Both the position numbers and the translations under genes were made by a program. From NCBI GenBank assembly GCA_937883775.1, contig CAKZXZ010000090.1, positions 1 to 39,976 of the forward strand: DNA of 39,976 nt, given 5' to 3'. Every line of letters begins with the position of its first letter. The stretch's first letter is position 1. Positions 7,148 to 22,626 of the stretch are shown here, piece after piece. The DNA comes from an uncultured Paracoccaceae bacterium (GTDB lineage Bacteria > Pseudomonadota > Alphaproteobacteria > Rhodobacterales > Rhodobacteraceae). The notes under the pieces were generated by a model, which was given only the letters and a program-made list of their open reading frames with translations, was not told where the DNA came from and did no database searches.

Positions 7148-8116
7148 ATGACAGAGCACGAAACCTTCCTGAACACTGCACGGCGGGTCATCCGCACCGA
7201 GGCAGACGCGCTTGCGATGCTCGAGCAAAGCCTGAATGGCGGTTTTGGCGAGGCAGTCGAGCTGATCCTAAAGGCACCCGGGCGGATTATCGTTTCGGGT
7301 ATGGGTAAATCAGGCCATATCGCGCGCAAGATCGCGGCGACCCTGGCATCGACGGGAACGCCGGCGCATTTCGTCCATCCTGCCGAAGCCAGCCATGGTG
7401 ATCTGGGAATGATGACCCAGGGAGATGTTGTCCTGCTGCTGTCAAACTCTGGCGAGACACCGGAACTTGCCGATGTCATCGCACATACCAGACGGTTTTC
7501 AATTCCGATGATCGGTGTTGCAAGCCGGGCGGACAGCACGCTGCTCAAGCAATGTGATGTCGCCCTTGTTTTGCCAAAAGCGGATGAGGCCTGTGGCACG
7601 GGTGTTGTTCCGACCACATCGACGACCATGACGCTTGCCCTTGGCGACGCGCTTGCCGTGGTCTTGATGGAGCATCGCCAGTTCACGCCCGCGAACTTTC
7701 GCGACTTCCACCCGGGCGGCAAACTGGGGGCGCAACTGACAACAGTCCGCGACCTGATGCATGTGGGTGACGCAATTCCAAAGATCCATCACACAGCCCC
7801 GATGAGCGATACGCTCCTCATGATCTCGCAAAAGGGCTTCGGCGTGGTTGGTGTGACGGATCAGAATGACTATCTGATCGGCATCGTGACCGACGGTGAT
7901 TTGCGCCGTCACATGGACGGGCTCCTGAACCTGACCGCTGCCGAGGTGATGACCAAATCGCCCCGCACAATCAGTCCTGGGGCTCTTGCCGAGGAAGCCG
8001 TTGCTATTATGAATGACAGCAAAATCACCTGCCTGTTTGTCGTCGATCCGGATGGAACAGACGCGCCGCTGGGTATCTTGCATATTCATGATTGCCTGCG
8101 TGCTGGCGTGGCATGA
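7148..8116 (+). CDS. kdsD: Arabinose-5-phosphate isomerase (KpsF/GutQ family)
   Basis: Converts ribulose 5-phosphate to arabinose 5-phosphate, the first step towards Kdo for lipopolysaccharide inner core (and for Kdo-linked capsules). The N-terminal half is a sugar-isomerase (SIS) domain with VSGMGKSGHIARKIAATLAS, LLSNSGETPEL and TSTTMTLALGDALAV. The C-terminal half has two CBS modules, beginning near VRDLMHVGDAIP and VMTKSPRTISPG. The ATG at 7148 (MTEHETFLNTARRV) gives 322 residues, matching the family. The frame is open upstream to 7094, but that would overlap the RNase D gene. The stop TGA overlaps the lptC start as ATGA, showing tight coupling with the LPS-transport genes. Confidence 0.95.
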   Translation: MTEHETFLNTARRVIRTEADALAMLEQSLNGGFGEAVELILKAPGRIIVSGMGKSGHIARKIAATLASTGTPAHFVHPAEASHGDLGMMTQGDVVLLLSNSGETPELADVIAHTRRFSIPMIGVASRADSTLLKQCDVALVLPKADEACGTGVVPTTSTTMTLALGDALAVVLMEHRQFTPANFRDFHPGGKLGAQLTTVRDLMHVGDAIPKIHHTAPMSDTLLMISQKGFGVVGVTDQNDYLIGIVTDGDLRRHMDGLLNLTAAEVMTKSPRTISPGALAEEAVAIMNDSKITCLFVVDPDGTDAPLGILHIHDCLRAGVA

Positions 8117-8715
8117 TGGCCGCGCACAGTCAGGGGTATTCACGCGCGGTTGCAGGTCTGAAGATCATCCTGCCGCTGGTCGCATTGGGCCTGCTATCGA
8201 CACTTTTTCTGCTATCCCGCCCTGTGGATCCCGAAGCAAACCTACCTTTCTCGGAAGCTGAAGTGGAAGAACTCAAGCGCGAGCAACGTGTCGGGCGGCC
8301 CACCTATACCGGCATGACAGGCGATGGATCTGCCATCACCGTCATCGCCGACAGCGCGCGCCCCGACCTGAGCAATCCCGCGCGCTTTGCGGCAGACAAC
8401 CTGTCTGCCCAGATCGAGACCGAACGCGGCGTTTTGATCGACATCGATGCACCCACTGGCGTGATCGACAATGACACTGAGCTTCTGACACTTTCGGGGG
8501 GTGTCGAAGTCCAGACGTCGGACGGCTACACGGTCTTGACCGACGAAGTTGAGACGACGCTCGACAGCACCCGGCTGCAGACGACAGGCCGCGTCGAAGG
8601 CAGCGGCCCTGCCGGTGATTTATCAGCCGACCGGATGGAGATGACACAGCAGGAAAACGGCTCCACGCTGATGGTTTTCAAAGGCGACGTTAAGGTGATA
8701 TACCAAGACCAATAG
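8113..8715 (+). CDS. lptC: LPS export protein LptC
   Basis: Bitopic inner-membrane protein that joins the LptB2FG transporter to the periplasmic LptA bridge. A single N-terminal membrane segment (IILPLVALGLLSTLFLL, about residues 18-34) is followed by a periplasmic beta-rich domain with a PTYTGMTGDGSAITVIAD start and a repetitive LSGGVEVQTSDGYTVLTDE region, typical of the LptC/LptA jellyroll. 200 residues from the ATG at 8113, whose ATGA overlaps the kdsD stop. A second ATG at 8116 is equally possible. lptA follows 18 nt later. Sequence conservation in LptC is low, so the call leans on position and topology as well as on fold-like repeats. Confidence 0.88.
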   Translation: MMAAHSQGYSRAVAGLKIILPLVALGLLSTLFLLSRPVDPEANLPFSEAEVEELKREQRVGRPTYTGMTGDGSAITVIADSARPDLSNPARFAADNLSAQIETERGVLIDIDAPTGVIDNDTELLTLSGGVEVQTSDGYTVLTDEVETTLDSTRLQTTGRVEGSGPAGDLSADRMEMTQQENGSTLMVFKGDVKVIYQDQ

Positions 8716-8733
8716 AGCGGGGTGATCGACGAT

Positions 8734-9240
8734 ATGCGTTTGGGCTATTTTGCAGGTGTGCTTGCCATCGTGGCAACCGGAGCCTTTGCGCAGGGCGCTC
8801 AGGTGAATTTCGGCGGTTTGGAAAATGATCCCGATGCGCCGATCGAGGTCACATCGAACGAGCTTCAGGTCAATCAGGATGAAGGTTGGGCGATCTTCAC
8901 CGGCGAAGTGATCGTCGGCCAGGGCGCGATGCGCCTGTACGCCCCCTGGGTAAAGGTTTTCTATACCGAAGGCGGCGGAGATATTGAGCGGGTTGAAGCC
9001 AAAGACGGTGTCACGCTTATAAACGGACCCGAAGCCGCAGAAGGCGAAACAGCGGTTTATACGCTGGCCGACAGCATGGTTGTCATGGATGGCAATGTTC
9101 TGGTCACACAAGGCGGCAGCGCCGTATCGGGTGACCGCCTGCGCGCCAATATGGACACTGGCGAAGCGCGGGTCGAAGGACGTGTGAAATCGCTGCTCAC
9201 CGGCAATGACGACGAAGAGGAAACACCCTCTGATGGCTGA
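8734..9240 (+). CDS. lptA: LPS transport periplasmic protein LptA
   Basis: Periplasmic beta-jellyroll protein that polymerises into the bridge carrying LPS from inner to outer membrane. A signal peptide is visible (MRLGYFAGVLAIVATGAFA then QGAQ). The mature part has the OstA/LptA pattern of repeating strands: APIEVTSNELQVNQDEGWAI, FTGEVIVGQGAMRLYAPWVK, VVMDGNVLVTQGGSAVSGDR. The ATG at 8734 yields 168 residues with a well-formed signal peptide. A GTG at 8722 would add four residues and cannot be excluded. Its 3' end overlaps the start of lptB by 8 nt, indicating translational coupling. Confidence 0.92.
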   Translation: MRLGYFAGVLAIVATGAFAQGAQVNFGGLENDPDAPIEVTSNELQVNQDEGWAIFTGEVIVGQGAMRLYAPWVKVFYTEGGGDIERVEAKDGVTLINGPEAAEGETAVYTLADSMVVMDGNVLVTQGGSAVSGDRLRANMDTGEARVEGRVKSLLTGNDDEEETPSDG

Positions 9241-11414: not shown

Positions 11415-12839
11415 TCAGACCCAGTCGCCAAATCCAAACGTCATGTAGTCGCGCTGGTACACCTCGCGCACAGCCTGTTCGACTGTGTCGTCATAAATAT
11501 CGACCAGCTGCACGGGATAGCTGTTGTCCTGCTCAACCAAGGGCGGGCACGCATACCCCACCTCGCGGGCAACAAAGCCCAGACCCTCTTCCATGCGATC
11601 CGCGCGGACGATGACATCGGGTAATGCAAATTGGCCAAACCCCTGCAGGCATTGCACCTGACTGGCCCAAAAGCCATCTACGCGAATACCCGTCTGATTG
11701 TTCAGATTTCCCTTCAGAAACGCCACAAATGCCAAAAAGGCCTCACGGTGCTGGCGGCGATCCCAGGTTTCGTCAACCTCACCTGCCGGGATCGGTAACT
11801 TGTAGACGCGCCGCAATGTGCTGCGAATCTCCTTGAAAGAGCCCTGACCTGCGTTCAGGATTTTTTCACAAAAGGCGACATGGGCACGTTCGACCGGGTG
11901 CTGAACCACAGTAAAGCTGCGATGCCCCTCGTTCTGACGTTTCCACTGACGCAAAGACTTTTGATTGTAATTGCCCTTCAGCGCTCCCGGCTTGACCCCA
12001 TCAAGCGCAGCGAGCCACGCCTTGATCTTGCGGTCCGGCCCACCTCGCACCGGCAAATACATCAGCGGCGCCTTGGCGGCCGTCAGAAAGCTGGGCACCT
12101 GCGGTCCACGCCGCGCTTCGAAATTGGGTGTGCGTGACAGATCAAAGTGATCGGTCTTGCCCAGCGCCACCTGCATATCGTCGAAATTCTTTACCTTTTC
12201 AGACAAGGGCGCCGGATTCTGCTTTTTGAGCTTTTTCGACAAGCTATCAAGCGCTGTCGTTTCGCCCAGAAAGCTTGCCAGACCGTTCATGACGTTCACG
12301 TCCTGAACGTCCTCATAAGCCAGATAGAACGCTGTCTGCCCGGTGACCTGCAGGGTGTTCAGAATGCGCACCTGGAAGGCCTGCAAGGCTGTCAAATGTC
12401 GGTCAAATTCATCAGCATCGAACGTGATCTTCGCTGATTTACGCTGCTTCATATCGGCCAGCTTCCACTGCCCGGTCTGCTGCGCGATTTTCCATGAGAC
12501 GTAACTCTCAACCGGGTTGCGGGTCAGAATAATCTTGGCGCAGCGTGGGTCGGGCAAAAGATGCTCAAGCACACGCGGGTCGTGATCGTGAAAGAAGCGA
12601 AACCCTGGAAGGCCATCGGTATTCTGCCGCATCGCATCGATCAAAGAGGCCGGGTCCCCTTCGCGCATGGCTTGGGTCACCCCGAAAAGGTCGGTCTTGT
12701 TGGGGTAGCAGATGAAATGCGGATTGAAGGCTTCGCCATAGCACGACAGGCCGGGAAACTCGTTTATATTGGTTTCCAGGAAGTTCGATCCTGTCCGCAT
12801 CTCTGCAAAAACGACGAATAAATCAAAGTCTTGGGACAT
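11415..12839 (-). CDS. Tandem two-domain sulfotransferase (NodH-like plus Sulfotransferase_2-like)
   Basis: Probably transfers sulfate from PAPS to a glycan. 474 residues with two halves that each look like a sulfotransferase. In the first half, the 5'-phosphosulfate loop MRTGSNFLETNI (14-25) and the 3'-phosphate motif LTRNPVESYVSW (105-116) are clear and resemble NodH-type enzymes. In the second half (about 255-474), VRGGPDRKIKAWL (264-276), QHPVERAHVAF (313-323) and WASQVQCLQGFGQ with a following VIVRADRMEEGLGF (391-423) line up with the Sulfotransferase_2 (HNK-1-type) pattern. There the usual Arg before (H/D)P is Gln and the usual Ser is Val, so the second PAPS site may be degenerate. No signal peptide is seen, so it is probably cytoplasmic. 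It is last in a glycosyltransferase run, 6 nt after the GT14-like gene. Confidence 0.8.
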   Translation of the reverse strand: MSQDFDLFVVFAEMRTGSNFLETNINEFPGLSCYGEAFNPHFICYPNKTDLFGVTQAMREGDPASLIDAMRQNTDGLPGFRFFHDHDPRVLEHLLPDPRCAKIILTRNPVESYVSWKIAQQTGQWKLADMKQRKSAKITFDADEFDRHLTALQAFQVRILNTLQVTGQTAFYLAYEDVQDVNVMNGLASFLGETTALDSLSKKLKKQNPAPLSEKVKNFDDMQVALGKTDHFDLSRTPNFEARRGPQVPSFLTAAKAPLMYLPVRGGPDRKIKAWLAALDGVKPGALKGNYNQKSLRQWKRQNEGHRSFTVVQHPVERAHVAFCEKILNAGQGSFKEIRSTLRRVYKLPIPAGEVDETWDRRQHREAFLAFVAFLKGNLNNQTGIRVDGFWASQVQCLQGFGQFALPDVIVRADRMEEGLGFVAREVGYACPPLVEQDNSYPVQLVDIYDDTVEQAVREVYQRDYMTFGFGDWV

Positions 12840-12845
12840 GTTCCG

Positions 12846-14546
12846 TTATCGCACCAGGTAAGGCTTGCGCGGCTTGTCTTTAGACGGGATCGGATCTTCG
12901 CCAACGGGAAAGTCACCCATCAGATGTGGGTGCATGCCCTGGTTCTTTAGGTTTTGCAGAAACTGACCAAAGCCGGTCAGATCCACCATACGCGGGACTT
13001 CTGTCAGGCGACGCAGGTTCTTTGGGCCGATCTCGTCAATGATGGTTTGCAACGGCTCCATCGGGCTTTCGACAAAATCCGCCATTGTCCAGATACGCAC
13101 ACGCGCCTTGCTGTAATAGGACCGCAGCACATCAAGGTGCTGGCTTTCGATCTTTTGCAGACGCGCCGCCTCTGCCCGCAAATCGGCGAAATTGCGGTTC
13201 GTTTTGAACAGCGGAACCGCCCATGCCCCGGTAATGACCGATATTTGCGCATTGGGATCTTTCGCGATCAGCCATTCGATCTTCTGATTGTCGTTGGGAC
13301 CAAACTGAAAACACTGCCGCTCCCCACGGGTGTTCCAGATCAGGTTGGTCAAAAACGCCTGCGGCCGGTAATCCCGCGCCTTGGGAGAACTGTAAAGCGC
13401 GCCCGCATAGTTTGGCTCACCACCCGCAAAGGCGACTTTATTCTTGTCGAAAAGGTGGCCGTGCACCTTGGCACCGGACGCGCGCGTGAGCCATGGCTCA
13501 AAATCTTCGAAAAGCTCTGTGAACCCTTCAAAAACGGAATAGGGCGCGCTTGTAACGCCGTTTTCCCAGCCGTCATTCGGCAAGCGGCTTTGCATATACA
13601 GGCCGGCACGCCCCCGTGTTCGACGTTCGACCGCTTTGGCAAAGATGCGGTCGATCTTACCGGGGTTGGGTTCGGTTCGCTTCATCGCACCATCGGCATC
13701 CGTCAGGAACGCCGCATAAAGGCGGTCGGCCTTTGACCAGATTTTGCGCGCTACGAAACAGTCAGAGCGGCGCAAAAGCTGTAGATGGTCGTCGTAAAAG
13801 ATGTGTGGTTTGCCTTGAAAATCGAACTTCGACAAAGTCAAAGAGCGGCTTTCCACGTTGGACGAATAGATGCGGCAAAGTGTTTGGAAATAGCTTTCAT
13901 CCGGGATCCAGACCCGTTTGAAGTAGTTATCGTAAACATGTCGATCCGGATCTTCGAGGATGGCCGAGAGCGTTTGTCGCGTCAGGCACCACCATTGCGA
14001 TCCCATATGCGGCACGATCCCAGCCGGGATCCGACGCTTGAATCCAATCTTGCGCTGCAGCTCGACGAACCGATCAAAGAAATAGCGGCGCTTTTTCCAC
14101 GAGAAAGGAAAGCTGAGCGTAAAGCGCTCTGCATCCAGGCCACCGACCGTCCAGGGCACATCCTCGGTCGTGGCTGATTCAATGAAGTCGGTGCGAGGGC
14201 GATCTGCCAGGTAATCAACAAGCTCTTGCACAGGGCGCAGCGGCAAACAGGAACCGGACGCCAGATAGACATGCGTGATCTCATTATTGGTGCGCAAAAG
14301 CTGCGCCGATGCAGCCTGAGACGCAGCAACGATGCCCCAAGTGCCCCATTCACAGCGATACCTGGTCTTGCAGAATGAAACCTCTTCGACATCTGACAGG
14401 TTGCGCACGAAGGTCTGATAGGTCTGGCGATCCACAAACTTGTCGCAATGGATCACAACCGGACACCCGCTGGCCGCCCAGTGGCGTGCGACTTGTTCCG
14501 CCCGGTGCAAGGACGTGTGCACCAGCATGACGATCCCGACAGTCAA
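12846..14546 (-). CDS. Core-2/I-branching (GT14-like) glycosyltransferase with extra C-terminal domain
   Basis: Residues 1-245 match the 'Branch' family of beta-1,6-N-acetylglucosaminyl- and O-xylosyltransferases: IVMLVHTSLHRAEQVARHW at the start, THVYLASGSCLPLRP (91-105), HMGSQWWCLTRQTL (180-193) and PDESYFQTL (215-223), whose Glu is the likely catalytic base. Residues 310-540 form a second region I cannot assign to a known fold (GLYMQSRLPNDGWENGVTSA onward). Comparable alphaproteobacterial proteins carry a domain of unknown function there. The TTG start at 14546 is chosen because AGGAGGG stands 5 nt upstream. The next in-frame ATG is six codons later. The gene lies 10 nt after the upstream transferase gene, whose stop codon shares a base with this ribosome-binding site. 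Probably a branching enzyme of a surface glycan. Confidence 0.82.
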   Translation of the reverse strand: MTVGIVMLVHTSLHRAEQVARHWAASGCPVVIHCDKFVDRQTYQTFVRNLSDVEEVSFCKTRYRCEWGTWGIVAASQAASAQLLRTNNEITHVYLASGSCLPLRPVQELVDYLADRPRTDFIESATTEDVPWTVGGLDAERFTLSFPFSWKKRRYFFDRFVELQRKIGFKRRIPAGIVPHMGSQWWCLTRQTLSAILEDPDRHVYDNYFKRVWIPDESYFQTLCRIYSSNVESRSLTLSKFDFQGKPHIFYDDHLQLLRRSDCFVARKIWSKADRLYAAFLTDADGAMKRTEPNPGKIDRIFAKAVERRTRGRAGLYMQSRLPNDGWENGVTSAPYSVFEGFTELFEDFEPWLTRASGAKVHGHLFDKNKVAFAGGEPNYAGALYSSPKARDYRPQAFLTNLIWNTRGERQCFQFGPNDNQKIEWLIAKDPNAQISVITGAWAVPLFKTNRNFADLRAEAARLQKIESQHLDVLRSYYSKARVRIWTMADFVESPMEPLQTIIDEIGPKNLRRLTEVPRMVDLTGFGQFLQNLKNQGMHPHLMGDFPVGEDPIPSKDKPRKPYLVR

Positions 14547-14550
14547 CGTG

Positions 14551-14557
14551 CCCTCCT
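14551..14557 (-). promoter_or_regulatory. Shine-Dalgarno AGGAGGG selecting a TTG start
   Basis: On the minus strand AGGAGGG is followed by CACG and then TTG at 14546. The first base of the site is the last base of the preceding gene's TGA stop, so ribosomes ending there sit directly on it. This favours TTG over the later ATG at 14528. Confidence 0.65.
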
Positions 14558-15567
14558 CATGCCCAGTTGCCTTTGGACATCAAACCAAGGATCTCAAGTT
14601 GTCTCCAATTTATGTATTTTTCCGACCATTTGCACCAAAGGTCCGGATTTTCCTGCAAACCTGCGGCATAAGCGCGATATTCGTGGCTGTTTGCGTAATG
14701 CTGTTTGCGGTTCAATTCCTCACGGGCCTTTTCGGGAAAGGTGTTGAGGAACTTGGTATGAAGCAAGCAGCCAGAAGCTTTTTCGCCGCCCCATTCATCA
14801 TATACCTGGTTCAGGCCGCGCGGCAGCAACATGTGCGAAGAACTGGCATAGGCGTAATTGCGGTGCCATTTGACCAATGGAATTTTATTCAGCGCGGGCG
14901 CACGTTCAGGCTTGTCTGCAAAAAAGACGCGGGCGCGCGGACCGCCTTGGATCCAAAGATTGCCGAACCTTCTATTACGCTCGATCGTGTAGTTGCCTGC
15001 ATCAAACCACGATGCGATCTCAATCGGGTCCTGGCCTTCATGATAGGCGACATCGTTCAGCGGCCCTTTGGGATACATATCCAGCAGCATCGCGCTGAAA
15101 GACTTGATCGACGAGGCGTCAAGCCAATCGGTCAGCGCCTGAATGGGCCGCGTATCGCAGAACGGATATACCAAAAATTCATCCGGATCGACGACCAGCG
15201 CCCAGTGGCCATGGGCATATTTCAGCTGCAGATAGTTTAGCCAATCAACACCAAAGCGCGACCGCTTGTAACTGCCTTGCGTGCTCCAGACAGAAACGTC
15301 CGGTTGATCCTGAAGAAACTCAAGCGACCCATCATCGCTGTCATTATCGACAAAGAAGAAATGGTTCACGCCCATATCGCGGTAATACCGCAGGAAATAT
15401 GGTAGGCGGATACGCTCGTTCCGTTGGGTGGTGAAGGACAGCACATCGCCCGGTTTGATCTGGCTGGTCCGATTGACCGTCGATACCAGCTCACGGCTTT
15501 TGCGGTACGCACGAAGCCGGAACCGTTTGCGACGCAACCGCAGGCGATATGTTTGTACCAGTCCCAA
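14557..15567 (-). CDS. Glycosyltransferase, GT2_4/GT92-like
   Basis: 336 residues. The core is a glycosyltransferase fold of the Glyco_tranf_2_4 type: FTTQRNERIRLPYFLRYYRD (45-64), NHFFFVDNDSDDGSLEFL (68-85) and the metal-binding-like VVDPDEFLVYP (125-135). A basic N-terminus (RLRLRRKRFRLRAYRKSR) could contact membrane phospholipids or nucleic acid; I see no membrane segment. The donor and acceptor cannot be read from sequence. The start is a TTG at 15567 after GAGGG with a short spacer. It lies 39 nt after the GT4 gene and feeds directly into the branching transferase, so the three transferases are probably one transcript. Function is assigned only to family level. Confidence 0.82.
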   Translation of the reverse strand: MGLVQTYRLRLRRKRFRLRAYRKSRELVSTVNRTSQIKPGDVLSFTTQRNERIRLPYFLRYYRDMGVNHFFFVDNDSDDGSLEFLQDQPDVSVWSTQGSYKRSRFGVDWLNYLQLKYAHGHWALVVDPDEFLVYPFCDTRPIQALTDWLDASSIKSFSAMLLDMYPKGPLNDVAYHEGQDPIEIASWFDAGNYTIERNRRFGNLWIQGGPRARVFFADKPERAPALNKIPLVKWHRNYAYASSSHMLLPRGLNQVYDEWGGEKASGCLLHTKFLNTFPEKAREELNRKQHYANSHEYRAYAAGLQENPDLWCKWSEKYINWRQLEILGLMSKGNWA

Positions 15568-15606: not shown

Positions 15607-16854
15607 TCACGCAACCCTTAAGACGATATTGAAGTGGTCTGTCCATGTCGGAAGCGCGGCCTGATCTTGCGCTACCTGCTTACTCGACCGTTGATTTTCC
15701 CCAAGTAGCAGTGTCTCAACACCTTTTTTCCAACGATACCTGTCATTTACATTCAGGTAAACGGGGATGTCTCGCAGAAATTCGCGGTAAACCGGCAGGT
15801 CTGCGCATAAGACCGGCGTTCCAAGCCACGCGGCCTCGGCCGGAGGCAGACCAAAGCCTTCGGCGATGCTTGGAAAAAGCAGGGCATCCGCGCCTTTCAA
15901 AAGGGTGAAAAGATCAGCGTCAGACAGGCTGTTTAGCTCAAGTATCGCTGCATTTGCCTGGTCGAGACGCTTAAAGACAGCTTCGTTTTTCCACCCGCGC
16001 GCGCCTGCAATCACCAATTGTGGCATCTCGGTCGGGGCCCGCTCGGCAGCCAGACGATCCCAGACATCAAGCAGCAACGCGTGGTTCTTGCGCGGCTCAA
16101 TCGTGCCGACACAAACAAAGATCGGACGTTCGGGATCAACCTTTTTTGGCCAGTGGCCGCCGGTCAAATCAGGCTCTGTTACGCCCAAAAGGGCCACGAT
16201 GCTTTTGGGCGACAGGCCCCAGCTTTCGAAATGACGCTGCGCGTCACGCTGACTTTGCGCAGAGTTGTAAACGATCATATCAGCGTGCGCGCCAACGCGG
16301 CGCAATTTGGCGGCAAAGGCCTCGGGAACGCCGTCAGCCTGATATTCAGGATGATCGAGCGGGATGGTATCGTGGATCATCACGATCCGCCGGGTATGGG
16401 CGAACGCGTCAAGCATGCGGCGGCTCAGGTTGCTGTGACCAACATTGAAATAGCGCGCATCGCCGGGGATATGCTTTGCGATCATGCGCGCAAGCCCGCG
16501 CGGGTGGCATCGCGCCATTGCATGCTGGCGCAGCGCGGTTTCGGCGCGCTGGCGATCAGGCGTGGCGCGGTTTCGAAGAAGGCTAAGCATATCGCGGCGG
16601 GGCCACTCATTGGCAATCAGTCGTTCCGCAATGGCTGTCGTGCCCAAGCGATCAAGCAGCACATACCCCAAAGACGTTCGGACAATCGCAAAAAGGGGAT
16701 CGCCAAGCTCAACAAACTTTGTGAGATACGCCATTTCAACCCGGTCAACGCCTGTCATCCGGCGACCTGCCCGCGAAATGAGGCGCGTCAGGTCCAGACA
16801 ACGCACCTGCCCGTTATTGATTGTAGTGCCCGGTTTGGTGCCAGCGCCATGCAT
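15607..16854 (-). CDS. Glycosyltransferase family 4 (GT-B)
   Basis: 415 residues with the GT4 C-terminal nucleotide-sugar domain: VCVGTIEPRKNHALLLDVW (247-265), VIAGARGWKNE (281-291), and SIAEGFGLPPAEAAWLGTPV (329-348), which contains the E-x7-E pair (EGFGLPPAE). The N-terminal part has MTGVDRVEMAYL, MIHDTIPLDHP and a VYNSAQSQRDAQRH motif, as in mannosyl- or rhamnosyltransferases of surface polysaccharides. The donor is not predictable. The ATG at 16854 overlaps the galE end by 41 nt and has no good ribosome-binding site. A GTG at 16806, just after the galE stop and just before RCLDLTRL, is a reasonable alternative start that would shorten the protein by 16 residues. Confidence 0.88.
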   Translation of the reverse strand: MHGAGTKPGTTINNGQVRCLDLTRLISRAGRRMTGVDRVEMAYLTKFVELGDPLFAIVRTSLGYVLLDRLGTTAIAERLIANEWPRRDMLSLLRNRATPDRQRAETALRQHAMARCHPRGLARMIAKHIPGDARYFNVGHSNLSRRMLDAFAHTRRIVMIHDTIPLDHPEYQADGVPEAFAAKLRRVGAHADMIVYNSAQSQRDAQRHFESWGLSPKSIVALLGVTEPDLTGGHWPKKVDPERPIFVCVGTIEPRKNHALLLDVWDRLAAERAPTEMPQLVIAGARGWKNEAVFKRLDQANAAILELNSLSDADLFTLLKGADALLFPSIAEGFGLPPAEAAWLGTPVLCADLPVYREFLRDIPVYLNVNDRYRWKKGVETLLLGENQRSSKQVAQDQAALPTWTDHFNIVLRVA

Positions 16855-17797
16855 CGGTAATCATCTGCTTCATATCCGACCGCTTGGGCCGCCATCCAAG
16901 CTCAGTTTCGGCTCTAACACTGCCGGATACAAGCATTGTGCAATCGCCCGCACGCCGCTCACCTTCGACTATGGGCACGGTTTTGTTCGTCACGTTATGG
17001 CTTTCATCAACCACTTCACGCACCGAAAACCCGTTGCCAGTCCCCAAATTGAAGACTTGGCTGTCCTTGCCGCTTTGTAGCCATTTCAGGCCCAGAACAT
17101 GCGCATCGACCAAATCCATCACGTGCACATAATCACGAATGCAGGTGCCGTCGGGGGTATCGTAGTCAGTGCCAAAGATCGTCAGAGCGTCGCGCTTGCC
17201 GTCAATCGCATCCAGCATAAGCGGCACCAGGTGGGTCTCGGGCTGGTGAAACTCTCCGACATCACCGTCAGGGTCTGCACCAGCCACGTTGAAGTATCGG
17301 AAAATCACAGATCGCAGGCCATCACTGGCAGCAAAGCCTGCCAGCATGTCCTCGATTGCGCGTTTCGAGGCACCGTAAGGATTGATCGGCTCTTGCGGGC
17401 AGGCTTCATCCAGCACGACATTGTCGTGATCGCCATATGTCGCACAGGTCGATGAAAAGACAATCTGTTTGCAGTCTGCTTTCAGCATCGCCTCAAACAA
17501 AGTCAGCGATCCGACGACATTGTTGCGCCAATACAGAGCCGGTTTTTGCATGCTTTCGCCAACCTGGCTCAACGCTGCGAAATGCATCACCGCGACAGGC
17601 GCATATTGGGCAAAAACCTGATCCAGCCGATCTGCGTCTGTCAGTTCACCCTGCTCAAACGGACCGAACTTTACGGCGTCGCGCCACCCGGTCGAAAGAT
17701 TGTCGTAGGTCACCGGCACAAAACCCGCTGCTTTCAGCGCTTTGCACGCGTGCGAGCCGATATACCCGGCCCCGCCCGTCACCAACACATATGTCAT
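16814..17797 (-). CDS. galE: UDP-glucose 4-epimerase
   Basis: Interconverts UDP-glucose and UDP-galactose for surface glycans, with a tightly bound NAD. The Rossmann motif GGAGYIGSHACKAL (residues 8-21) is followed by SSTCATYGDHD and the catalytic INPYGASKRAIED (Tyr141, Lys145), then RYFNVAGADPDG and DGTCIRDYVHVMDL, all diagnostic of extended-SDR GalE. 327 residues, normal length. It starts 9 nt after the galU stop, so it is co-transcribed with galU, which makes its substrate. Two or three downstream glycosyltransferases are the probable consumers of its product. Confidence 0.96.
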   Translation of the reverse strand: MTYVLVTGGAGYIGSHACKALKAAGFVPVTYDNLSTGWRDAVKFGPFEQGELTDADRLDQVFAQYAPVAVMHFAALSQVGESMQKPALYWRNNVVGSLTLFEAMLKADCKQIVFSSTCATYGDHDNVVLDEACPQEPINPYGASKRAIEDMLAGFAASDGLRSVIFRYFNVAGADPDGDVGEFHQPETHLVPLMLDAIDGKRDALTIFGTDYDTPDGTCIRDYVHVMDLVDAHVLGLKWLQSGKDSQVFNLGTGNGFSVREVVDESHNVTNKTVPIVEGERRAGDCTMLVSGSVRAETELGWRPKRSDMKQMITDAWRWHQTGHYNQ

Positions 17798-17806
17798 GCG
17801 CCGGAC

Positions 17807-18700
17807 TTACTGCGCGGCGTTTTGTTGGGATACCATATGGCTCAGATACTCGGAAAACTCACCCTTCAGATCGTCGCGACCCAAGGCAAAGGCAACAGTT
17901 GCCTGCAAGAACCCGGCCTTTGATCCGCAATCGAAACGCTGACCACGGAAGCGATATCCAAACACATCCCGTTTTTCGCTGATCTCATCCGCGATCGCAT
18001 CTGTGAGCTGAATCTCTCCACCCGAGCCGGATTTCAAACGGTTGAGGTTTCGCAAGACATCCGGGGTCAGGATATAGCGCCCGATCACAGCAAGGTTTGA
18101 AGGCGATTCGTTGGGGTCTGGCTTTTCAACCATTCCGTTAACCGCCACCATGCTGCCCATATCTTCGCGCACATCCAGCATACCATATGATGACGCTTTT
18201 TCGGGCGGCACTTCCATCGCAGCAACCATGCATCCACCCGTTTCCTCATAAGCCTCGACCATCTGCTGCAAGCACGGCTTTTCAGCGGCGATCACATCAT
18301 CGGGCAGGATCACTGCAAAAGGTTCGTTGGCGATAAGGCGACGGGCACACCATACGGCGTGGCCAAGACCCAATGCTTTGTGCTGGCGAATATACGCAAT
18401 CGCGCCACTGTCCATGTTGGTGCTTTTCAGCGTGTCCAACAGTTCGGTCTTACCCTTCTTGCGCAAGGACGATTCAAGATCCGGGGCGTGGTCAAAGTAA
18501 TCTTCAAGCGCGTTTTTCCCGCGTGACGTGACAAAGATAAACTCTTTGATCCCGGCGGCGCGCGCCTCGTCGATGGCGTATTGGATGAGCGGTCGGTCGA
18601 CCAGCGTCATGATCTCTTTGGGGACAGCTTTGGTTGCAGGCAAAAACCGGGTTCCCAAACCCGCAACCGGAAAAACGGCCTTTGTGACTTTGCGCTTCAT
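17807..18700 (-). CDS. galU: UTP-glucose-1-phosphate uridylyltransferase
   Basis: Makes UDP-glucose from UTP and glucose 1-phosphate. The N-terminal nucleotidyl-transfer signature FPVAGLGTRFLPATKAVPKE (residues 10-29) and LVDRPLIQYAIDEA are followed by FAVILPDDVI, VVEKP-like NGMVEKPDP and the RFDCGSKAGFLQA region near the C-terminus, all typical of bacterial GalU. 297 residues, normal length. TAGGGACAG precedes the ATG at 18700. A 146-nt spacer separates it from the upstream GT2 gene, room for its own promoter. The UDP-glucose made here feeds galE immediately downstream. Confidence 0.96.
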   Translation of the reverse strand: MKRKVTKAVFPVAGLGTRFLPATKAVPKEIMTLVDRPLIQYAIDEARAAGIKEFIFVTSRGKNALEDYFDHAPDLESSLRKKGKTELLDTLKSTNMDSGAIAYIRQHKALGLGHAVWCARRLIANEPFAVILPDDVIAAEKPCLQQMVEAYEETGGCMVAAMEVPPEKASSYGMLDVREDMGSMVAVNGMVEKPDPNESPSNLAVIGRYILTPDVLRNLNRLKSGSGGEIQLTDAIADEISEKRDVFGYRFRGQRFDCGSKAGFLQATVAFALGRDDLKGEFSEYLSHMVSQQNAAQ

Positions 18701-18846: not shown

Positions 18847-20079
18847 TCACAGGTCGGCGTCAACAAGCGCACGCATGGGCGCACAACGGCTCACCTCTTG
18901 AGAAACACGACCTTTGAACCCTTTCGTCAAAACGGGGCCCGCCCTGCGATCGGACCGACCCCAAAGCCCCCCAGATTGAATCCAGATACCAGGCGTCTCG
19001 TACCGAACATGATGTCGCCGGAAGGAGGGACCGAACAGAAATATCGTCACGATCTGACCTTTTTCACGCAACTTATACGCCTGCTGCCTCAATTTTGCGC
19101 GCTGCCACGTGCGTCCTGCCAGCAAAACCGACCCAGCCGTTGCAGTGGATTGAAACGGTAGAAACGAGGAGTTTTGCCTGACGATTCCATGTGGCGCCAG
19201 CGGACGATTGAGGCCTTCTGCAAACCCATCGCGCAGCGTTTTCAGCAATCGTGCGACATCCCGAGGCTCGATCAATCCATACACGAGATAGTTCAGGATC
19301 CGACGCCTTTGCTGCTGCTCGTATGAAGCGAAATACGGCTCTAATTTGGCTGAATTCGCATGTTTCCGCAGAAACACAGCCTTACTTGCTCCAAGTTGAA
19401 ACAAGCTCTTGGGCGCGCGGGCAGCGCTTCTTGTGGCATTTTCGGCAAAGCCATGGTGAACCTCCGCGCCGGGCACAAAGGCGATCCGATGACCTGCTTT
19501 GGCAAGCCGCAGGCAAAGATCGGTTTCGTCCAGATAGTAGTGAAAGCCCGGATCGAACCCACCAATCGAAGCCAGCGCCTTCCGGCGTATCGCCATGTTG
19601 GTTCCTTCAAGCTTTGCAACATGACCGTGCGGGACGTCAGCAACGAAAGGCACGTCACCGCTTTGCAGATCAACGCGCTGTCCTGTTTTGTCGACAGCGC
19701 CGGCTTTCCATTGGAACGATATCCCGTTTCGACCGCGGACAAAGCCACCAACAGCGGCAACGCCGTCCAGCTCGAACCCTTTAATCAGCTCGGCAAGCCA
19801 GGTTGGCTCGGGCACAGCATCGTCATCGATAAAGGCGATGATGTCCCCGTCAGCCTGCGCAATCCCAAGGTTTCGCGCGACCGAGATGTTGGGCTCATCA
19901 AAGACAGTCATCTTGATCTTATCGGTGTAGTCAGACAGCGCTTTGCACCCGGCAGGGTCAGAGACCACGACAATTTCGTAGTTCGAGTAAAGCAGTTGCG
20001 ACAGGCCCACGACGCATCGTTTCAGCAAGTCTGCGCGATGACGACTTACAACAACGACGCTCACCGGTGGTTGGGTCAT
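18847..20079 (-). CDS. Glycosyltransferase family 2
   Basis: 410 residues. The N-terminal 220 residues are a GT-A domain: SVVVVSRHRADLLKRCV (7-23), NISVARNLGIAQADGDIIAF (64-83), the metal-binding IDDDAVPEPTW (84-94), GTNMAIRRKALASIGGFDPG (159-178) and the acceptor-site YYLDETDLCLRLAKAGH (181-197). These indicate an inverting GT2 enzyme. The C-terminal 190 residues, rich in Arg and Lys, carry no motif I recognise and no clear membrane segments. The ATG at 20079 overlaps the kdsB stop as ATGA, so it is translated with kdsB. That coupling hints at a Kdo-containing acceptor, but this is inference. Confidence 0.87.
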   Translation of the reverse strand: MTQPPVSVVVVSRHRADLLKRCVVGLSQLLYSNYEIVVVSDPAGCKALSDYTDKIKMTVFDEPNISVARNLGIAQADGDIIAFIDDDAVPEPTWLAELIKGFELDGVAAVGGFVRGRNGISFQWKAGAVDKTGQRVDLQSGDVPFVADVPHGHVAKLEGTNMAIRRKALASIGGFDPGFHYYLDETDLCLRLAKAGHRIAFVPGAEVHHGFAENATRSAARAPKSLFQLGASKAVFLRKHANSAKLEPYFASYEQQQRRRILNYLVYGLIEPRDVARLLKTLRDGFAEGLNRPLAPHGIVRQNSSFLPFQSTATAGSVLLAGRTWQRAKLRQQAYKLREKGQIVTIFLFGPSFRRHHVRYETPGIWIQSGGLWGRSDRRAGPVLTKGFKGRVSQEVSRCAPMRALVDADL

Positions 20080-20876
20080 TTAAGACCCATTTGGGCCATC
20101 ATAGACTCTATTTTGGGCACGTCTTCTGGATTGTTAAGCTCCCAGAACTGCTTGCCCTTTGCATCAACGGGCACGCATAAAATACGGCGCCCGTTTTCGA
20201 GAAAGCGCAGCTGTTCCAGCCCTTCAAGCTGTTCAAGCGGTCCACATGCCCAGCTGGGATAAAGCGCCAGGGCATCAGGACGATAGGCATAGACCCCCAC
20301 ATGGTGAAAGACGGGTGTCGGACCCGTCTTTGCATACTGTTTGGTGGTGAACGGGATCACTTCCTTACTGAAATAAAGCCCATGGTGGGAGGCATCAAAA
20401 ACCGCTGTCGTCCCGCCGACCCTGCCCTCGGCGCGGTCCTGCTTGAGGCTGGCAAGCATTTCGCCGTCGCACCGCAAAACCGGTGTCGCGATATCTGCAT
20501 CCGGAGCAGCACGCAGGCCGTCAATCAGGTCTTCAACGAACCACGCAGGCGTCAACGGCGCGTCGCCTTGTAGGTTTACAACGATCTCGAAGCGCGCGCC
20601 AAGTGTGTCATGGGCTTCGGCGCAACGCTCGGTTCCGTTTTCACATGTTGAAGCGGTCATGATGACATCAGCACCAAAAGCTTCGGCCGCCTGTTTGATC
20701 CGGTCATCATCCGTTGCCACGACAATGCGATCAACGCCGCGCACAGCACAAGCGGCCTCCCACGAGCGCTGAATCAGGCTCTTTTCCTGCCCATTTGCAC
20801 CCTTCAGCGCGACCAAAGGCTTGCCCGGATACCGGGTCGAGGCGTAGCGCGCCGGGATCACCAGCAAGACTGACAT
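20076..20876 (-). CDS. kdsB: CMP-Kdo synthetase (3-deoxy-manno-octulosonate cytidylyltransferase)
   Basis: Activates Kdo with CTP to CMP-Kdo, the donor for lipid A core and for Kdo linkers of group-2-type capsules. VIPARYASTRYPGKPLV near the N-terminus is the family signature, followed by VVATDDDRI, NLQGDAPLTP and HHVGVYAYRPDAL. 266 residues, close to the family's 250. The start overlaps the cysQ stop (TGATG), and the stop overlaps the GT2 start. The window also encodes kdsD, the first step of Kdo synthesis, 13 kb away; kdsA and kdsC are not seen here. Confidence 0.94.
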   Translation of the reverse strand: MSVLLVIPARYASTRYPGKPLVALKGANGQEKSLIQRSWEAACAVRGVDRIVVATDDDRIKQAAEAFGADVIMTASTCENGTERCAEAHDTLGARFEIVVNLQGDAPLTPAWFVEDLIDGLRAAPDADIATPVLRCDGEMLASLKQDRAEGRVGGTTAVFDASHHGLYFSKEVIPFTTKQYAKTGPTPVFHHVGVYAYRPDALALYPSWACGPLEQLEGLEQLRFLENGRRILCVPVDAKGKQFWELNNPEDVPKIESMMAQMGLK

Positions 20877-21673
20877 CAGGGTTTTTCCAGATCAACACCG
20901 GGTGCGTAAGCAATGAAAAAAGGGTTCGCAAACTCTGCCTTGCCATATGCCAGCTCGGAATGGTCATCAAACCGAACGACGCGTCCGCCAGCACCCGTTA
21001 GAACAGCATGGCCTGCCGCCGTGTCCCACTCCATCGTGCGACCAAGACGCGGGTAGATATCGGCTTCGCCGGTCGCAACCAGACAGAACTTCAAGGACGA
21101 GCCTGCGCTTTTGCTGTCAGCCACCTGATATTTGTTGATGTAGGCATCGGTATCGGCATCCCGGTGAGATTTGGAGGCCACCACCATAAGAGCCGAATTG
21201 TCCGGTTTAGAGACTGATATCGCGGTCACATCACCAATGTCATCCTTAGCGAAAGGCCCTTTTTCTTCGACCGTCGCACCATGCGCCTGGGTGTAGAAAA
21301 GCCGTTCGCGGGCTGGAGCATAGACAACACCGCGGGTCGGCACGCCATCTTCGACAAGTGCGATATTCACAGTAAAATCGCCACGTCGGTTGATGAACTC
21401 CTTGGTACCATCAAGCGGGTCGACGATCAGGAAAGTCTGTGCGTTTTGGCTATGGGACGCAGACTGCTCTTCGGTGACCAGAACGACATCTGGAAAAGCG
21501 GCGCGCAAACCCTTTGAAATATGCGCATCTGCTGCCTCGTCAGCCGCCGTAACAGGGCTATCGTCAGATTTCACCTTCACGTCGAAATCGTCAGAATTGT
21601 AGATATCCATAATAAGATCGCCCGCCTCCAATGCGAGGCGACGGATCGTCTGTGTCAGGGCCTGATAGTCCAA
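20876..21673 (-). CDS. cysQ: 3'(2'),5'-bisphosphate nucleotidase CysQ
   Basis: Removes the 3'-phosphate from PAP (and PAPS), the by-product of sulfate transfer and assimilation. It has the inositol-monophosphatase-fold metal sites: VTEEQSA, DPLDGTKEF (the D-P-L-D-G-T metal motif) and near the C-terminus TMEWDTAAGHAVLTGAGG (W-D-x-A-A-G-H). The start chosen is TTG at 21673 (DYQALTQTIRR) because AAGGAG stands 7 nt upstream. The ATG at 21697 would add eight residues with no ribosome-binding site. This gives 265 residues, the normal length. Being first in a block that ends with a sulfotransferase suggests it clears the PAP that enzyme makes, though CysQ also has a general housekeeping role. Confidence 0.93.
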   Translation of the reverse strand: MDYQALTQTIRRLALEAGDLIMDIYNSDDFDVKVKSDDSPVTAADEAADAHISKGLRAAFPDVVLVTEEQSASHSQNAQTFLIVDPLDGTKEFINRRGDFTVNIALVEDGVPTRGVVYAPARERLFYTQAHGATVEEKGPFAKDDIGDVTAISVSKPDNSALMVVASKSHRDADTDAYINKYQVADSKSAGSSLKFCLVATGEADIYPRLGRTMEWDTAAGHAVLTGAGGRVVRFDDHSELAYGKAEFANPFFIAYAPGVDLEKP

Positions 21674-21680
21674 GAGCGCT

Positions 21681-21686
21681 CTCCTT
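21681..21686 (-). promoter_or_regulatory. Shine-Dalgarno AAGGAG selecting a TTG start for cysQ
   Basis: On the minus strand AAGGAG is followed by AGCGCTC (7 nt) and then TTG at 21673. It lies inside the frame opened by the ATG at 21697, which has no such site before it. Confidence 0.6.
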
Positions 21687-21707
21687 ACGTCGCACATTGC
21701 TGCGATA

Positions 21708-21804: not shown

Positions 21805-22626
21805 ATGTTCCAGTTCGAGACCCGCCAGAAGACGCGAAGTAGCGCGATCAGCATGCTTGAGCTGATCTATCACAGTGTGGTCCGCTCGATTCGGAAAACC
21901 CACAACAATGCGGTCATGAGCCTGGTCATCAATATGCTGCAGACGATTACGTTCGTCGCAGCATTCTATGTCATGTTCACAGTTCTGGGATTACGTGGCG
22001 CGGCCCTGCGTGGGGATTTCGTGCTCTATATCATGTCCGGTATTTTCATCTTCATGATCCACACCAAAACGGTGAGCGCGGTCACGCGGGCCGAAGGGCC
22101 GTCATCTCCGATGATGAAGCACGCGCCGATGAATACGATCATCGCCCTGGCTGCGTCCGCATTCGGTGCGCTTTATATTCAGGTCTTGTCGCTGGTCGGA
22201 GTTCTTTTCATCTATCACATCGCTTTTACGCCAGTCGTCATTGAAGATTATTCAGGCGCAATGGGGATGGTGGGTCTGGCATGGCTCACCGGTGTGGGTG
22301 TGGGTATGATCTTCCTCGCACTGCGCCCGTGGTTTCCGTCTTTTGTCAGTATTGGTTCTCAGATCTATAATCGTGCGAACATGATTGCCTCTGGCAAGAT
22401 GTTCGTCGCCAACTCACTGCCCAGCTTTATGCTTGCGTTCTTTGACTGGAACCCGCTGTTTCACATCATCGATCAGGCAAGGGGATTTGTCTTTATCAAC
22501 TACAACCCACACTACACCAATTATGAATACCCAATCATTGTAGCTGTTGTGTTGATCTTGCTTGGGCTGATGGGCGAATTCTACGCGCGCAAGAACGCGT
22601 CTTTGTCGCGAGAGGCATCGCGCTAA
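21805..22626 (+). CDS. ABC-2 type permease, polysaccharide-export (KpsM-like)
   Basis: 273-residue inner-membrane protein with about six hydrophobic segments (for example TITFVAAFYVMFTVLGL, GVLFIYHIAFTPVV, VAVVLILLGLMGEFY). The order of the helices, the MLELIYHSVVRSIRKTHNNA start and the NPLFHIIDQARGFVF segment near the C-terminus match ABC-2 permeases that export capsule or O-antigen glycans (KpsM/RfbD type). GAGG five nucleotides before the ATG supports the start. No ATPase (KpsT-like) gene lies next to it, which is unusual because the two normally form a pair. It must use a partner encoded elsewhere. It is divergent from the glycan block beginning with cysQ. Which glycan it carries cannot be read. 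Confidence 0.8.
   Translation: MFQFETRQKTRSSAISMLELIYHSVVRSIRKTHNNAVMSLVINMLQTITFVAAFYVMFTVLGLRGAALRGDFVLYIMSGIFIFMIHTKTVSAVTRAEGPSSPMMKHAPMNTIIALAASAFGALYIQVLSLVGVLFIYHIAFTPVVIEDYSGAMGMVGLAWLTGVGVGMIFLALRPWFPSFVSIGSQIYNRANMIASGKMFVANSLPSFMLAFFDWNPLFHIIDQARGFVFINYNPHYTNYEYPIIVAVVLILLGLMGEFYARKNASLSREASR

Follow-up and report, generated by a model that had tools for sequence, protein, structure and literature searches.

In the DNA stretch analysed here (the window, 39,976 nucleotides from an uncultured Paracoccaceae bacterium), one gene encodes a protein of 474 amino acids in which a NodH-like sulfotransferase with an unvarying donor site is joined to a second sulfotransferase-like domain whose donor site is non-canonical. 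The reading that we prefer, at a probability of about 0.6, takes the N-terminal half for a glycan sulfotransferase of the NodH/Stf0 type that depends on PAPS, and the C-terminal half fused to it for a non-catalytic module for the acceptor glycan. Single-domain relatives of both halves are already known, and the two-domain fusion is the new element; no paper describing a protein built from two such domains was found in the literature searched, a search whose scope took in few subscription papers. The features discussed below are collected in Table 1.

Table 1. Features of the two-domain sulfotransferase gene and its neighbors, in window coordinates
Feature	Position	Strand	Basis
Two-domain sulfotransferase, 474 aa	11415..12839	minus	ORF translation, Pfam, relatives
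N domain, NodH-like sulfotransferase, residues 1-240	12120..12839	minus	Profile match to 9vki; plasmid single-domain sulfotransferases
5'-phosphosulfate-binding motif, N domain, residues 14-25, MRTGSN...	12765..12800	minus	127-row conservation
E36, candidate catalytic base	12732..12734	minus	Same residue in 127/127
3'-phosphate-binding motif, N domain, residues 105-116, LTRNP...S	12492..12527	minus	R107 and S115 in 127/127
C domain, residues 250-474, Sulfotransfer_2-like fold, degenerate donor site	11418..12092	minus	Pfam, hhalign, AlphaFold2 model
Altered 5'-phosphosulfate loop, C domain, residues 263-275	12015..12053	minus	Canonical pattern 0/127
Altered 3'-phosphate motif, C domain, residues 313-321, QHPVERAHV	11877..11903	minus	127-row counts
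Branch (Core-2/I-branching) glycosyltransferase + DUF5927	12846..14546	minus	Pfam; 6 bases from the sulfotransferase gene
Glyco_tranf_2_4 glycosyltransferase	14557..15567	minus	Pfam, locus comparison
GT4-type glycosyltransferase	15607..16854	minus	Pfam, locus comparison
galE, UDP-glucose 4-epimerase	16814..17797	minus	Pfam, NCBIfam
galU, UTP-glucose-1-phosphate uridylyltransferase	17807..18700	minus	Pfam, NCBIfam
GT2 glycosyltransferase	18847..20079	minus	Pfam, NCBIfam
kdsB, CMP-KDO synthetase	20076..20876	minus	Pfam, NCBIfam
cysQ, 3'(2'),5'-bisphosphate nucleotidase, removes PAP (PAPS by-product)	20876..21697	minus	NCBIfam
KpsM/VexB-like ABC-2 permease	21805..22626	plus	Weak, under family cut-offs

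A Fused Gene Widespread in the Rhodobacteraceae

The reading frame runs without interruption from an ATG start through 474 codons to a stop. A first-pass annotation had placed two sets of sulfotransferase motifs in this one chain; its coordinates are correct, the strand being minus, and the motifs lie in the translated protein at the residues it gave. Among Pfam families, Sulfotransfer_2 (PF03567) matches residues 295-470 with 22.3 bits against a cut-off of 22, a marginal pass, and Sulfotransfer_1 matches residues 25-206 under its cut-off (E 0.058); across 67 members of the family, at E ≤1, Sulfotransfer_2 is matched in 51, Sulfotransfer_1 in 38, and Sulfotransfer_3 in 37. An NCBIfam search of the 474-residue protein gave no match. 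Because the Pfam matches occur both in the protein and in its family, and because the fused layout is kept in near-full-length relatives across the Rhodobacteraceae, the two motif sets go beyond chance; the intact frame and the same layout in relatives likewise rule out a frame or assembly artefact.

The fusion gene is matched in 253 of 296 sampled Rhodobacteraceae genomes, a near-core distribution, with a few of these matches weak or partial. Near-full-length matches were found only in this family in the samples drawn from the class (387) and the phylum (397), where matches outside the family cover about one half of the protein or less. The closest named relatives are from Cognatishimia sp. 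MH4019 and an uncultured Rhodobacteraceae isolate (88%), followed by those of Octadecabacter and Roseovarius (58-60%). Viral contigs gave 46 pattern matches, none of them a relative. Two apparent three-domain fusions (loci L063 and L076, with ORFs of 1007 and 1122 residues) were rejected: judged by eye, their upstream parts read as out-of-frame translation, and an ATG precedes the sulfotransferase.

The residue counts given below refer to 127 aligned rows, a non-random sample composed of the window protein, 66 distinct sequences from best-scoring or hand-chosen loci, and 60 more chosen by hand from match lists, with the truncated genes L139, L140, and L142 as well as L141 left out.

A Conserved Donor Site in the N-terminal Domain

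The N-terminal half contains the motifs MRTGSNFLETNI (residues 14-25) and LTRNPVESYVSW (residues 105-116), in which the earlier annotation had seen intact NodH-like PAPS motifs. That description is borne out across the family: Arg-15, Gly-17, Ser-18, Glu-36, Arg-107, and Ser-115 are unvarying in 127/127 aligned relatives, so that the donor-site residues, both the RxG(S) 5'-phosphosulfate loop and the 3'-phosphate Arg and Ser of NodH-like sulfotransferases, are present in every row. Residue 16 is Thr in 125 rows and Ser in the other two (L191 and L192, which read RSGS). In a review (PMC11625862), an RXG loop is named for NodH and the donor site is defined by a Lys or Arg in the loop, a Ser on a helix, and a sheet.

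A profile of 67 relatives yielded one convincing solved structure, 9vki, titled "LPS sulfotransferase NodH" (E 4.3e-15, positions 7-154). NodH, which falls in the Pfam Sulfotransfer_1/3 range, resembles the N-terminal half in its RxGS loop, in the later R...S motif, and in the residue corresponding to Glu-36, a candidate catalytic base by analogy with Stf0. Single-domain sulfotransferases encoded on plasmids, mostly annotated as such in rhizobia and similar plant symbionts, align to residues 8-245 with 24-30% identity. Outside the Rhodobacteraceae, this half is matched in reading frames about 240-340 residues long, hence of single-domain size. NodH and its plasmid relatives are single-domain proteins, whereas the window protein carries a second, fused sulfotransferase domain and is encoded in a probable surface-glycan operon.

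Fold and Relatives of the C-terminal Domain

A full-length model of the protein is poor (pLDDT 47.1); residues 246-474, modelled with AlphaFold2 from seven sequences, gave a mean pLDDT of 83.7 and a pTM of 0.83. The annotation had allowed that this half might prove not to be a sulfotransferase fold, and the model predicts that it is one. All 50 structure matches listed for the model are sulfotransferases or the related retinol dehydratase (Z 6.6-8.9), the best being 1nst (Z 8.9, 183 residues, rmsd 4.0). Foldseek alone returned no match to the model at E ≤0.001, with heparan sulfate 6-O-sulfotransferase best at 0.017. Human heparan sulfate sulfotransferases, represented by NDST1 (1nst), HS6ST (5t03, a zebrafish/human construct according to its PDB title), and 3-OST, resemble the C-terminal half in fold (Z 7.7-8.9) but share only 8-17% identity with it and have different donor-site residues.

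By itself a Z of about 8-9 is middling. The comparison by hhalign with free-standing Sulfotransfer_2 proteins adds independent evidence, and a strong match (98.8%, E 9.5e-16, 220 columns); its alignment takes in the two donor motifs and reaches the C-terminal end. To these free-standing proteins of the Rhodobacteraceae (270-306 residues, e.g. L078-L093) the C-terminal half aligns along all of its length. They are themselves well conserved within the Rhodobacteraceae, their PKCACS[TS]IG motif is intact, and they are encoded apart from the operon; L085 is such a locus in the genome from which the window comes.

An hhalign comparison of the two halves of the fusion protein found no relation between them, and the protein therefore appears to have arisen by fusion of two subfamilies rather than by tandem duplication. 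A Sulfotransfer_2-derived domain would then have been fused onto a NodH/Stf0-type sulfotransferase within the Rhodobacteraceae.

Divergence of the Second Donor Site

The first motif of the C-terminal half is PVRGGPDRKIKAWL (residues 263-276). At the two donor motifs this half reads PVRGGPDRKIKAW and QHPVERAHVA, whereas the free-standing proteins read PKCACSTIG and RNPYTRILSS; of the general patterns PKCACS[TS]IG and RNP.....S carried by the latter, it has neither intact. The canonical 5'-phosphosulfate loop with Lys and Ser/Thr is found in 0/127 rows, the window protein included, and Pro-263, Pro-268, and Trp-275 are conserved in the loop instead. As a control, the loop pattern was recovered in 18/19 free-standing proteins, a partly circular figure since the 19 had been kept for having the motifs; among unselected free-standing loci (23 inspected, of which 22 gave an ORF), the loop motif and the R[ND]P motif were each present in 20/22 as counted by eye.

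As the annotation had pointed out, in the window protein Gln replaces the canonical 3'-phosphate Arg at residue 313 and Val replaces the Ser on the 3'-phosphate helix at residue 321. Its argument from the loss of these two residues holds only in part when extended to the family. Loss of the Arg throughout is rejected, as 109/127 rows retain it and Gln occurs in just four (the window protein, its two genus mates, and L158); the argument from the Ser fares better, with Ser in 14 rows and Thr in 5, so that Ser/Thr is present in 19/127 and absent from 108. Arg at 313 and Ser/Thr at 321 occur together in 16/127 rows, in view of which some nucleotide binding by the C-terminal half may persist. On a rough FastTree tree, residues 313 and 321 each show a minimum of 14 changes of state. 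Judged from the aligned sequences, the Gln of the window protein arose locally, at a labile position, and the loop is non-canonical throughout, and it is the absence of the canonical loop, more than the state of the Arg and Ser, that is the firmer evidence for a putative pseudo-domain.

Such patterns bear on whether the C-terminal domain could itself be an enzyme. Both domains would be catalytic if this one used PAPS through a rebuilt site made of Arg/Lys-265, Arg-313, and Arg-318 and sulfated a second position. The presence of Arg or Lys at residue 265 in 90/127 rows, the frequency of Arg-313, and the near invariance of His-314 (126/127), Pro-315 (127/127), and Arg-318 (126/127) are consistent with this idea, as is strong purifying selection on the domain. 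Yet the canonical loop is found in no row, Ser/Thr at 321 is infrequent, and Arg has given way to Gln in the window's own genus; moreover, hhalign sets residue 266, mostly Gly or Ser, and not residue 265, opposite the catalytic Lys, in a loop alignment whose register may be off by a residue or two. A second catalytic site therefore seems improbable to us. More doubtful by far is a role as a PAP or PAPS sensor regulating the N-terminal domain: retention of the 3'-phosphate Arg in most rows alongside a non-canonical 5' loop would suit a sensor, but an Arg whose state shifts so often on the tree, and which the window protein itself lacks, argues against one.

Selection on the two halves was compared in four close pairs, in which dN/dS is 0.054-0.074 for the C-terminal half and 0.024-0.030 for the N-terminal half; in pairs that include the window protein, synonymous sites are near saturation. 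The C-terminal value, about twice the N-terminal one, still denotes purifying selection, and a decaying C-terminal domain is rejected on these values (0.05-0.07). The same half also drifts more, with a mean majority fraction of 0.60 versus 0.70 in the N domain. The division proposed in the first-pass annotation, one active domain and one pseudo-enzyme or substrate-recognition domain, thus fits the conservation insofar as it suggests an active N-terminal and a non-canonical C-terminal half; that the latter recognizes substrate is a role that we infer.

A Probable Surface-Glycan Operon

The gene lies at the end of an operon with the order cysQ-kdsB-GT2-galU-galE-GT4-GT2_4-(Branch-DUF5927)-sulfotransferase, which adjoins ptsN-hpf-lptB-lptA-lptC-kdsD. 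Given this terminal position among genes for sugar assembly, the enzyme most likely sulfates a cell-surface glycan. The presence of kdsB, the KpsM-like gene, and KpsC/KpsS-type genes (PF05159, located elsewhere in the genome in 16/16 Rhodobacteraceae genomes inspected) suggests a KDO-linked surface polysaccharide as the candidate product; no glycan structure for this operon was found in the literature searched. CysQ serves general sulfate assimilation as well, and because of this general role and because cysQ stays where the sulfotransferase is absent, the gene gives weak support for sulfation.

Among 26 loci with wider flanks, Branch-DUF5927 is immediately upstream of the sulfotransferase gene, preceded by Glyco_tranf_2_4, in all 26, and ptsN is on the other side in 22. 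DUF5927, on which no paper was found in the literature searched, is present in 250/296 Rhodobacteraceae genomes and is nearly as widespread as the sulfotransferase: by hand comparison of these 296, both occur in 248 genomes, the sulfotransferase alone in 5, DUF5927 alone in 2, and neither in 41. The five genomes with the sulfotransferase alone comprise one weak match (G118), one remnant (G186), two genes cut by contig ends (G150 and G302), and one truncated gene (G162).

This close association could also mean that the C-terminal domain is mainly structural or partner-binding, for example docking on the Branch-DUF5927 glycosyltransferase and binding no glycan. The adjacency at every locus, the co-occurrence across genomes, and the greater drift of the domain are all compatible with docking, whereas the near invariance of His-314, Pro-315, Arg-318, Gln-394 (126/127), and Trp-275 suggests a retained pocket, unless these are residues of the fold. 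Docking as the main role is in our estimate unlikely.

If the C-terminal half is instead the acceptor-glycan module that we favor, the system would work as follows. The N-terminal domain would bind PAPS through the Arg-15-Thr-16-Gly-17-Ser-18 loop together with Arg-107 and Ser-115, as its motifs predict, and would transfer sulfate to a sugar hydroxyl in the glycan made by the glycosyltransferases of the operon, probably with Glu-36 as the base if the analogy with Stf0 holds. The acceptor hydroxyl would most likely be close to the residue that the neighboring Branch-DUF5927 enzyme adds. The C-terminal domain, a sulfotransferase fold without the canonical donor site, would bind or position that acceptor glycan, CysQ would recycle the PAP, and the product would presumably exit as a KDO-linked surface polysaccharide.

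A more specific proposal, that a pseudo-sulfotransferase conserved throughout the lineage serves as a glycan reader for the live enzyme fused to it and so sets the position of sulfate on a near-core surface polysaccharide, is tentative, and we would not wager on it. Were it true, the Rhodobacteraceae in general would be marked by a sulfated surface glycan. Under the broader reading that we prefer, most bacteria of this abundant family would make such a glycan, with possible consequences for phage attachment, algal contact, and metal binding, and the protein would provide a natural case of a sulfotransferase fold turned to non-catalytic use.

Loci with a Reduced or Missing Sulfotransferase

Nine loci, chosen for weak, partial, or missing sulfotransferase matches, were inspected. 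In five (L134, L135, L136, L137, and L138), no sulfotransferase was detectable beside a retained glycosyltransferase operon that includes Branch-DUF5927, and the enzyme therefore looks like a decorating one, dispensable for the glycan itself. The other four comprise one with the N-terminal half only, two with the C-terminal half (one accompanied by a truncated N-terminal half and one cut by a contig end), and one with an 80-residue remnant.

L141 (G082, 7497-8774) has a 426-codon frame in which the N-terminal half is followed by about 170 residues unmatched by the C-half profile. L140 (G162, 7602-8777) retains the C-terminal half and only the end of the N-terminal half, without recognizable glycosyltransferase neighbors, and is a truncated, probably decaying gene. 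L142 (G186, 8696-8971) keeps an 80-residue remnant of the C-terminal half, flanked by ptsN and cysQ; the remaining operon is gone, and the remnant is a fossil of that loss.
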